Under the pieces are notes generated by a model. The model was not told the DNA's origin. It searched no databases and worked only from the letters and a program-made list of their open reading frames with translations. A stretch of 64,000 nt of DNA from an uncultured Latescibacterota bacterium (GTDB lineage Bacteria > Latescibacterota > UBA2968): positions 4,844,522 through 4,908,521 of the forward strand of contig OX638329.1 of NCBI GenBank assembly GCA_951812755.1. The letters run 5' to 3'. Positions within the stretch are counted from its first letter, which is position 1; every line of letters starts with the position of its first letter. Shown here piece after piece: positions 18,112 through 20,798 of the stretch. A program made the translations under genes and the position numbers.

Positions 18112-18564
18112 ATGGGAAAGGGGAAATTCTCATCGACGAAAACATATCACGATCTACCCTGTGCACACCGTCAGGGGTATCACGACGGCCACTGTCGATT
18201 TATTCACGGATACAACCGCGAGATCACATTTTATTTTACCTGCAACGAACTCGACGAAAATCACTTTGTCGTCGATTTTAGCAAGCTCAAGAAACTCAAA
18301 ACATGGTTAGATCACATGTTTGACCACACGATGCTCATCAACGAAAATGATCCCGAACGCGAATTTTTTGAAGAAATGCACCGCCGTGGCCTGATTGATC
18401 TGCGAATTATGCCCAACGCTGGCATGGAAGCATCATCAAAATTTGTCTTTGATTATGCCGATAAACTCGTGCGCGACATGACCCAGAACCGATGCTGGGT
18501 CTATAAAGTTGAAACCCGTGAAAACATGAAAAACTCGGGTATATACGAACTTGTGGATGACTGA
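18112..18564 (+). CDS. 6-carboxytetrahydropterin synthase-like protein (QueD family)
   Basis: A 150-residue T-fold protein of the PTPS/QueD family, which converts dihydroneopterin triphosphate to a pterin in queuosine or biopterin routes. Visible motifs: a zinc-ligand His in LPCAHRQ, then CRFIHGYNREI containing the catalytic Cys and a second zinc His, and DHMFDHTMLI with the catalytic Asp-His. In classical QueD the zinc motif is HGH; here it is HGY. A subfamily with HCRFIHGY is, as far as I recall, widespread in other bacteria, so this is probably a variant and not a broken gene, but its activity is uncertain. No other queuosine gene is in the window. AAAGGA precedes the ATG. Confidence 0.82.
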   Translation: MGKGKFSSTKTYHDLPCAHRQGYHDGHCRFIHGYNREITFYFTCNELDENHFVVDFSKLKKLKTWLDHMFDHTMLINENDPEREFFEEMHRRGLIDLRIMPNAGMEASSKFVFDYADKLVRDMTQNRCWVYKVETRENMKNSGIYELVDD

Positions 18565-18624
18565 AACGCGCACCTGAATGGCGTGTTTTATATTTACTGC
18601 ACAAAATACTGCACATATTTTTTT

Positions 18625-18669
18625 AATAACACAATAAATTGTTTATAAACAATAATTTGTTGTGTTATT
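18625..18669. promoter_or_regulatory. 45-base AT-rich palindrome
   Basis: AATAACACAA at 18625-18634 and TTGTGTTATT at 18660-18669 are perfect inverted arms, and the inner arms (AAATTGTTTA and TAAACAATAATTT) are nearly complementary. A T-run follows, so it could be a weak AT-rich terminator for the QueD-like gene, or an operator since it ends six bases before the -35 box of the sigma factor promoter. Confidence 0.5.
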
Positions 18670-18675
18670 TTTTTC

Positions 18676-18704
18676 TTGACTTATGAACAAATGTTCACTA
18701 TATT
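18676..18704 (+). promoter_or_regulatory. Sigma-70 promoter with LexA-like palindrome in spacer
   Basis: TTGACT (18676-18681) and TATATT (18699-18704) with a 17-base spacer. Between them TGAACAAATGTTCA (18684-18697) is a perfect palindrome of the form GAAC-N4-GTTC, which matches the Gram-positive-type LexA box. A repressor there would block polymerase. The promoter serves the group-2 sigma factor at 18794. Confidence 0.65.
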
Positions 18705-18793
18705 TTTGTTCCGCCATAACTGAGGCCATTTAACAGAATCAGACAGATGTTTCGCACAGAGTATAGGGCCTCAGAACACCACAAGGAGGAAAC

Positions 18794-19801
18794 ATGATTT
18801 CCGAAATGAACCAACGTCACAGCCCCGTCCAGCAGGCCCCTCACAAAGCGCCAGGGCAAGGCGCAGATCGTGTTTGCACCTCACCCCATGCAGGCGATGA
18901 ACCCTCTCTGGCCTATTACTACAAGGAGATCGAGCGACACCCACTGCTCACGCCAGACCAAGAAAAAGCACTGACAGAGCAAATTGCCCTGGGCGACCTG
19001 CCAGATGCGAGTGCTCGTGCTCGGCGGGCAGGAGAGCATGCCCGCGAAAAGCTCATCACCAGCAACCTGCGCTTTGTCATTCACGTTGCCAAAAATTTTA
19101 AGAATCAAGGACTGCCCCTGGCCGATCTCATCAATGAAGGCAATATGGGGCTGATGACTGCCGCTCGCAAATTCAAACCCGAAAAAGGTTACAAGTTCAT
19201 CACCTACGCAGTCTGGTGGATCAGACAGAACATCCTCAAAGCCCTCGAAGTTCAAACCCGATCCATCCGGATTCCCGGCAATGTTATCAATGACCTCAAC
19301 AAACTGCGAAAAGTCGAAGCTGATATGACTCAGCACCTCGACCGACATCCCGATGCCGATGAACTCGCCCAGGAAACCGATCTACCCCTGAAAAAAGTCA
19401 CACACACCCTCGAATCGGCCTACAACACCGTGTCGCTGGATACCCCAATGTACGATGAAGTCACAAGCTCATCGCCTCGCGCTGTCACCCTTCAAGAAAC
19501 CCTGCCAGATCCCCAAAAATTATCTCCGGAAGACGCCTATATTCAAAATACCATGCACAATGATATACACAACGCGCTCAGTGCCTTGCCCGATCGCGAC
19601 CGACAAATTTTGCATCTCTATTACGGTTTCGACGACCCAAAGGAACGCGCCGAAATCAGCAGATCAAAACCCGTAACCTATCAACAAATAGGCAACAAAC
19701 TGGGAGTAAGCCGAGAACGGGTGCGCCAACTCAAAGAAGAAGCACTCAATCGGCTGCGGCATCCCACCCACAGTAAGCGACTTGCTACCTATTGCAGTTA
19801 A
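18794..19801 (+). CDS. Sigma-70 family RNA polymerase sigma factor (RpoD/RpoS-like, group 2)
   Basis: A 335-residue primary-like sigma factor. Region 1.2 is SLAYYYKEIERHPLLTPDQE; region 2 includes LRFVIHVAKNFKNQGLPLAD and the -10 recognition helix YKFITYAVWWIRQNILKAL; region 3 begins with TRSIRIPGNVINDLNKL; region 4 carries VTYQQIGNKLGVSRERVRQL, the -35 binding helix-turn-helix. It lacks the long acidic region 1.1 of the housekeeping factor, so it is probably an alternative, stress-type factor. CAAGGAGG sits seven bases before the ATG. Transcription from a promoter with a LexA-like palindrome suggests damage or stress control (inference). A strong terminator follows at 19851. Confidence 0.92.
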   Translation: MISEMNQRHSPVQQAPHKAPGQGADRVCTSPHAGDEPSLAYYYKEIERHPLLTPDQEKALTEQIALGDLPDASARARRAGEHAREKLITSNLRFVIHVAKNFKNQGLPLADLINEGNMGLMTAARKFKPEKGYKFITYAVWWIRQNILKALEVQTRSIRIPGNVINDLNKLRKVEADMTQHLDRHPDADELAQETDLPLKKVTHTLESAYNTVSLDTPMYDEVTSSSPRAVTLQETLPDPQKLSPEDAYIQNTMHNDIHNALSALPDRDRQILHLYYGFDDPKERAEISRSKPVTYQQIGNKLGVSRERVRQLKEEALNRLRHPTHSKRLATYCS

Positions 19802-19850
19802 AGTGAGAAATTATACACCTCTTGTCTTATTAAAACACAGCCCAAAAATC

Positions 19851-19882
19851 AGAGCGTCGGCAAATCGCGCCGACGCTCTTTT
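19851..19882 (+). terminator. Rho-independent terminator
   Basis: An 11-base perfect stem, AGAGCGTCGGC with GCCGACGCTCT, a seven-base loop and a T-rich tail (TTTTGTATTT). It ends the sigma factor transcript. Confidence 0.9.
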
Positions 19883-19985
19883 GTATTTCTACTTGCGTCT
19901 AAAGCCAAAACCTTGCTATTTACAATATTCAAATGAACTTCTTGGCAAGTTGCACGCCGCTTATTAGCTCACAGGTAAATCATCT

Positions 19986-20798
19986 ATGAAAATCATCATC
20001 CTCTCTGCACTCGGCGCACTCATTCTGCTCGGCGTGGGTGTGTACATTGTTTTTTATATTTCAGAGCGCGACAAAATTGAAGGAAAATCCTTCTTCCGTC
20101 TTGAAAATCGCTGGCTCTACGGATTTTTGGGCTACGCATCTGTCATTGTCATCACTTTTTTGGTCCTGATTTTGCAAACCTCGCTCACGCGCCAGGAGAA
20201 AACCCTTGAAAATACGCAAGCGCGGTTCCAGCAAGAACTCACAGCTTTTCGCGAGCGACTCGGCGAACAAACCGACCGTCTCATGTCCCAAATCAATGAA
20301 AAAGCGGAACTCACTGGCTCTGAAGTCGAGGTGCGTGGCAAGCTATCCAATGAAATCGCACATCACCAACGCACCCGCAAAGAACTTGCCTCTGCACGCG
20401 AACAATTGCGCCTCACACAAAGCGACTTAGATCGGGAAACCCGCGCACACCGCGCCTATCGGGACAGCCTCAACACCGAAAGATCGCTTCACGCATCAAC
20501 CCAAAATCGACTCAAGCGCGAGGAAGCGCAACACACCAAAAACCGCGAGACATTGCGAAACACCCAACAAAAACTCGACCGCGCCAACGAGCAACTAAAC
20601 GTACAAAATCGCCAGATTAAAGCGCTGAGAAGCGATCTCAAACGCGCACAGGACAACGCCGACAACGCACGCCAGATAGCCAGCCGCCTCTTACAGCAAT
20701 CCGGTGACCATCAGCGGGCACTCCTGATCCTTCAAGCCACCGTCGATTCTCTCTTTCTAAAAGAATTTAAACGCCCCCGAGTTCCCTCAGACAAATAG
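19986..20798 (+). CDS. Membrane protein with long periplasmic or cytoplasmic coiled coil
   Basis: A 270-residue protein of unknown function. It has two hydrophobic helices, at about residues 3-25 (IIILSALGALILLGVGVYIV) and 45-65 (GFLGYASVIVITFLVLILQ), then about 190 residues rich in Glu, Arg, Gln and Leu in heptad-like order, predicted to be a long coiled coil, and a short tail. The architecture is like scaffold or tether proteins. It lies 19 bases upstream of the RND membrane-fusion gene on the same strand, so it may belong to the efflux operon; no homologue with known role is recognised. The ribosome-binding site is weak (CAGGTAA). Confidence 0.75.
   Translation: MKIIILSALGALILLGVGVYIVFYISERDKIEGKSFFRLENRWLYGFLGYASVIVITFLVLILQTSLTRQEKTLENTQARFQQELTAFRERLGEQTDRLMSQINEKAELTGSEVEVRGKLSNEIAHHQRTRKELASAREQLRLTQSDLDRETRAHRAYRDSLNTERSLHASTQNRLKREEAQHTKNRETLRNTQQKLDRANEQLNVQNRQIKALRSDLKRAQDNADNARQIASRLLQQSGDHQRALLILQATVDSLFLKEFKRPRVPSDK

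Follow-up and report, generated by a model that had tools for sequence, protein, structure and literature searches.

A predicted LexA operator between the −35 and −10 elements of a group-2-type sigma factor gene, conserved across an order of uncultured bacteria

A palindrome resembling a LexA box lies within the promoter of a sigma factor gene in the 64,000-nucleotide stretch of Latescibacterota DNA analysed here (the window). This arrangement raises the question of whether the SOS repressor controls the sigma factor and, if so, what the factor would contribute to the response to DNA damage. The promoter (CTTGACTTATGAACAAATGTTCACTATATT) spans positions 18676-18704 and combines TTGACT, a 17-bp spacer, and TATATT upstream of a sigma-70 gene (Table 1). 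A preliminary description of this DNA had stated that the palindrome fits GAAC-N4-GTTC and sits exactly between a good −35 and a good −10 element; direct reading confirms both points and places the core of the palindrome, GAACAAATGTTC, at 18685-18696. In a scan of 18500-20100, which returned two promoters, the sigma promoter is the better one, with 10 of 12 matches and a spacer of 17. The box between its −35 and −10 elements is therefore placed to block the promoter. Upstream, an A+T-rich inverted repeat with a T run behind it is probably the terminator of the neighbouring 6-pyruvoyl tetrahydropterin synthase (PTPS) family gene; it is not among the matches of a G+C-based terminator scan. The T run abuts the −35 element, and with a probable terminator in front of it the sigma promoter would stand alone. 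Moreover, since an intrinsic terminator follows the gene and a single promoter is recognisable, the sigma gene probably forms a single-gene transcript.

Table 1. Features of the sigma factor locus, with positions counted from the first nucleotide of the window.
Feature	Position	Strand	Evidence
PTPS gene (6-pyruvoyl tetrahydropterin synthase family), upstream of sigma gene	18112..18564	+	ORF; Pfam PTPS 5.9e-19
A+T-rich inverted repeat, then T run abutting −35	18627..18667	+	direct read
−35 element TTGACT	18676..18681	+	direct read and promoter scan; kept in relatives
LexA operator (predicted), TGAACAAATGTTCA, taking 14 of 17 spacer bases	18684..18697	+	direct read; lexA/recA matrix; 20 of 20 orthologous promoters
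−10 element TATATT	18699..18704	+	direct read and promoter scan; kept in relatives
Sigma leader stem	18720..18774	+	helix search
Shine-Dalgarno AAGGAGG, outside leader stem	18783..18789	+	direct read
Sigma-70 family factor, 335 aa, group-2 type	18794..19801	+	ORF, Pfam, tree
Intrinsic terminator, 11-12 bp stem, detected on both strands	19851..19879	+	terminator scan

The genome (6.53 Mb, one contig) holds a single LexA-family match and a single recA. The LexA protein (L001 1066-1695) matches its family over the full length (TIGR00498, 231.8 bits) and comprises a DNA-binding domain and an S24 peptidase domain. In an alignment with solved LexA, the VAAGEP cleavage region, the serine of GDSM, and the lysine of TVKR fall at matching places, and the protein thus has both domains, the Ala-Gly cleavage site, and the Ser-Lys dyad of a canonical LexA. 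The boxes found in the lexA promoter (TTGACGGATGCACGAACGTTCACTATATT; longer read CTTGACGGATGCACGAACGTTCACTATATT) and in the recA promoter (TTGACGTATATACAAATGTTCACTATACT; longer read CTTGACGTATATACAAATGTTCACTATACT) agree with the sigma site in form and place: the three promoters share one layout and the same operator, with the box in identical register. CTGT-N8-ACAG, which the preliminary description had named as a form that would speak against its reading, does not occur within 300 bases upstream of any of the three genes; the same holds for GTTC-N7-GTTC, GGTT-N10-AACC, and TTAC-N3-GTAA, known LexA box forms according to the accessible part of one study (PMC8565304). The form proposed earlier, GAAC-N4-GTTC, holds at the sigma gene, whereas the box of this organism is looser and reads roughly TGMAC-N4-GTKCA. 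Its halves are unequal, strict towards the −10 element and degenerate towards the −35 element. Within the order, it ranges from TGAAC-N4-GTTCA in most genomes to TGCAC-N4-GTGCA in some. The box thereby spans the Gram-positive SOS (Cheo) box, GAAC-N4-GTTC, and the form TGCNC-N4-GTGCA that Mazon et al. reportedly described in 2004 for Fibrobacter succinogenes. Such a range inside one order can help to follow changes in LexA boxes.

The bare string GAAC-N4-GTTC is so common, with two exact occurrences in the window and 58 in the genome (45 for a reversed control pattern), that it proves nothing by itself. A matrix of 14 columns was built from 20 sites (8 lexA, 12 recA) and no sigma sites; these were picked from 38 found in order to reduce near-copies, and one locus (L214) owes its assignment to recA solely to its leader. 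The sigma site has the top matrix score in the window, 22.1 bits, while the next unrelated site reaches 9.25, and one of 10^7 simulated positions attains the sigma-site score. Scored with the matrix of the box alone, the whole genome should hold about one site this good by chance (1e-7 x 13 million positions); the box alone would consequently not settle the case, and position and conservation do. The strict pattern ACNNNYGTKCANTATA, which includes the −10 element, occurs at five places in 6.53 Mb (control, 0), namely at lexA, recA, the sigma gene, a gene for a 109-aa protein at 611,234, and a gene for an HlyD-family efflux lipoprotein at 5,427,106. Matrix score, promoter position, and conservation together rule out a chance palindrome.

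The ortholog search covered all 21 genomes of the order. Sigma orthologs with 48-94% identity to the window protein are found in 20 of them; G014, an assembly of 930 contigs, has no ortholog at E 1e-68. The box lies between −35 and −10 in every one of the 20 orthologous promoters, and the sequence farther upstream differs among genera. lexA was found in 20 of the 21 genomes, with the strict box at 19 of these loci and a variant, TGAACCCATGGGCA, which the strict pattern missed, in the lexA promoter of G021. recA was found in all 21 genomes. Its box was read directly at 17 of them and by leader similarity at G019; at G016 the gene lies at a contig start and shows no site, at G017 the box has no adjoining TATA, and at G022 the upstream stretch read contains no box. 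At the sigma gene, GTGCA replaces GTTCA in three of the 20 orthologs (G011, G012, and G020), and variants altered in both halves occur in G020 (TGCACATATGTGCA) and G012 (TGCACAGATGTGCA). In G011 and G012, all three genes (lexA, recA, and sigma) have GTGCA as the right half. Discordant halves are seen in G020, where the sigma box has GTGCA and lexA and recA have GTTCA, and in G019, where lexA has GTGCA and the sigma gene GTTCA. With the same box in the lexA and recA promoters and in all orthologous sigma promoters, the earlier proposal that a LexA-like repressor controls this group-2 factor gains clear support, and the palindrome very probably serves as a LexA operator through which a group-2-type sigma gene is repressed.

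Two further features of individual genomes concern the box and its reader. The sigma promoters of G011 (L033) and G012 (L031) carry tandem LexA-type boxes, the second one 30 bp upstream of the first and both of the GTGCA form. G015-G018 (L068-L071), which belong to another family, encode a second, diverged LexA-like protein of 39-40% identity, possibly the product of a lexA duplication.

Pfam assigns regions 1.2, 2, 3, and 4 to the sigma protein and yields no match for region 1.1, a combination that fits group 2. In line with this class, its best solved relative is a SigB, and it shares 43% identity with the RpoD-like paralog. A quick tree was computed from the 20 orthologs, 80 RpoD-like genes from other bacteria, and five of this genome's seven further sigma matches. 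In this tree the orthologs group together in a single clade that excludes RpoD (SH-aLRT 100) and has a long stem branch of 2.92 changes per column; between regions 3 and 4, its members vary. The partner of the RpoD-like paralog in the same quick tree is a Candidatus Latescibacterota record (SH-aLRT 90), a lead from a single gene. A contig scan with the sigma factor returned RpoD-like genes of other phyla at 36-42% identity, close relatives being absent among the matches. The segments of region 2.4 (YAVWWIRQNILKAL versus YAVWWIRQAILQAL) and region 4.2 (SRERVRQLKEEAL versus TRERVRQIKEKAL) are near those of the RpoD-like paralog, and the promoters recognised by the factor are thus probably RpoD-like.

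In the LexA/RecA mechanism, a LexA dimer blocks the polymerase, and RecA filaments trigger LexA self-cleavage. At this locus, a LexA dimer seated between the −35 and −10 elements would bar RNA polymerase from the sigma promoter in undamaged cells. RecA filaments forming on damaged DNA would induce self-cleavage of LexA, which would free the sigma promoter and, together with it, lexA, recA, and a small set of further genes. The sigma factor, with its near-RpoD contact residues, would then join core RNA polymerase and move transcription to its own targets. With high confidence, judging from the promoter sequences and their conservation, we favour this joint reading, in which a LexA operator blocks the sigma promoter, damage frees it, and the factor shifts transcription. 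The preliminary description had gone on to tie a whole regulon to DNA damage. The sequences show the box itself, its match to the box of lexA and recA, its place in the promoter, its conservation, and a LexA protein that fits its family over the full length; LexA binding, damage induction, and a sigma regulon, both that it exists and what it comprises, are what we infer.

SOS usually amounts to a flat set of LexA-controlled genes, and an order-wide, LexA-controlled, RpoD-like sigma factor would turn it into a cascade with a delayed and larger output. In such a two-tier SOS, LexA would hold a handful of genes, and the sigma factor would switch on a second regulon as the main damage output in the order; the factor may also reread SOS promoters and thereby amplify itself, and the stem in its leader may add a further step of control. 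We offer this extension tentatively, as quite possible although we lean slightly against it. A missing Y-family polymerase in the genus fits the two-tier arrangement but does not prove it. If it holds, the damage response of a genus apparently without these polymerases would be unlike the mutagenic SOS of E. coli. Defining the promoters of the sigma holoenzyme would be a concrete way to learn how these uncultured bacteria respond to damage. Alternatively, the operator could be real and the factor an amplifier of RpoD-type promoters, those of SOS included, without a separate regulon. Its region 2.4 and 4.2 segments, near those of the paralog, and the RpoD-like SOS promoters agree with such an amplifier, but the long stem branch and the variability between regions 3 and 4 suggest a role of its own, and we regard the amplifier as conceivable yet rather doubtful.

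Further candidates for the SOS regulon come from the strict pattern, which occurs at 2-8 places per genome in the 21 genomes, lexA, recA, and the sigma gene among them (control, 0-4). It precedes genes for an ankyrin-repeat protein (L231, L235) and an HlyD-family lipoprotein (L232, L098). In several genomes it also precedes the gene for a conserved small protein of roughly 100 aa (L094 (1638-1964), L230, L234, L236, L241; likely relatives, in other families, at L245 and L248). The small protein has no Pfam match and is a candidate new SOS protein. Moreover, a radical SAM protein of 257-265 aa stands behind a LexA box in relatives (L229, L233, L238; L212, L244, L246). It resembles a spore photoproduct lyase by look, Pfam giving Radical_SAM only, and a tblastn search of the window did not find its gene there. 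In some relatives, roughly 34-38 kb separate this gene from the sigma gene. Several other strict-pattern places (such as L210, L237, and L240) look like chance, and most additional matches to looser patterns fall inside coding sequence (judged by look to be uvrB, ribosomal protein S4, a sulfatase-like gene, and others) and were likewise taken as chance. At uvrA (L101, named by look), the box is reversed between TTGATG and TATATT with a 17-bp spacer. As the pattern searches covered one box orientation and the strict pattern missed this site, the list of LexA-regulated genes is a lower bound. A search for Y-family polymerases (PF00817) found none in the 11 genomes of the genus (G000-G010), and 11 of 14 control genomes gave matches. 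Lack of these polymerases alongside a canonical LexA is unusual among bacteria.

The reversed uvrA box also bears on whether the shared sequence is a repressor site at all. It might instead be the signature of a promoter class, reflecting a preference of one holoenzyme for an extended spacer or a particular −10, as the likeness of the three promoters extends to the −35 element, the −10 element, and the base before it (CTATATT). A preference of this kind is hard to reconcile with a pattern found at only five places in 6.53 Mb and 2-8 per genome across the order, with a conserved part that is palindromic and altered in both halves in some genomes (G020, G012), and with a uvrA box that occupies the same place in the opposite orientation. 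lexA promoters, moreover, are normally repressed by LexA itself, and we consider a promoter class very improbable. Least probable of all is a different dimeric repressor at the sigma box: short palindromes serve many repressors, LexA binding is here a prediction, and G015-G018 have their second, distant LexA-like protein, but the same box stands in the lexA and recA promoters and the genome of the window has one LexA-family match.

A LexA operator at the sigma gene, as favoured here, has precedent in LexA control of other sigma genes; an order-wide group-2 case looks like a new form of such control. In E. coli, the rpsU-dnaG-rpoD operon is under LexA. E. coli RpoD is a LexA-controlled sigma-70, as is predicted for the window factor, but it is the essential primary factor and is encoded in an operon, whereas the window factor is secondary and has its own promoter. 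For C. glutamicum, the accessible text of one study describes a putative LexA box, TGGTACATATGTTCTA, overlapping the −10 element of P4, a housekeeping-type promoter of sigH-rshA, and its authors tie SigH to DNA repair (PMC3489674). That gene and ours share a putative LexA box at the promoter of a sigma gene. However, SigH as described there is an ECF factor with an anti-sigma factor and several promoters, whereas the window factor is RpoD-like with a single predicted promoter, and no anti-sigma gene was recognised beside it; further, unlike in the sigH account, conservation of the box was checked over an order. In M. tuberculosis, according to the available portion of the report, sigG is induced by DNA damage as part of a RecA-independent response, and deleting it left DNA-repair genes unaffected (PMC3776920). 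Damage induction, which is predicted for the window factor, is thus shared, but the sigG response does not depend on RecA.

The study on non-canonical LexA in Bacteroidetes has no sigma-factor passage in its accessible sections (PMC8565304), and that on the cyanobacterial LexA regulon does not mention sigma in the text available (PMC3091678). The accessible part of a Synechocystis LexA study reports little change of sigF, a group 3 factor (PMC4759255). In Prochlorococcus, group-2 sigma genes respond to UV, and the available part of that account mentions no LexA box (PMC2921402). Our literature search, with most subscription journals outside its scope, found neither a description of a LexA box for this group nor LexA combined with a group-2 sigma factor in this phylum.

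The leader of the sigma mRNA contains a predicted stem in which CTGAGGCC (18720-18727) pairs with GGCCTCAG (18767-18774), so that the extreme 5′ end of the mRNA is joined to bases immediately preceding the Shine-Dalgarno sequence. In each of the 20 orthologous leaders (relatives, L019-L037), the best helix from an unguided search occupies this same position, the 5′ arm beginning 6-15 bases past the −10 element and the 3′ arm ending 15-33 bases before the start codon. In 12 representative leaders, whose arms were put in register by hand, all eight stem positions vary, and both sides of the pair change at seven of them; pair 5, for example, changes from G-C to A-T, and pair 6 only from G-C to G-T. 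Shuffle tests of single leaders are weak in several cases, where as many as 63 of 200 shuffles do equally well. Since single leaders are often no better than shuffles, the shared position and the paired changes carry the case for the stem. At E 1, Rfam gives no family match to the leaders; a sub-threshold SAM-Chlorobi match lies elsewhere in L018. The stem could possibly act as an mRNA-stabilising or regulatory leader.

Leaders of the two other genes were obtained with an automatic finder, from 10 of 12 recA loci and 3 of 10 lexA loci. The three lexA leaders read are no better than shuffles. recA leaders carry a stem of 7-12 bp right after the transcription start, which in this genome (L072) is formed by TGCGGTGCAG...CTGCGCCGTG. 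These recA stems (L073-L088, L215) have no Rfam match, and in other genera their sequence differs while the pairing is kept.
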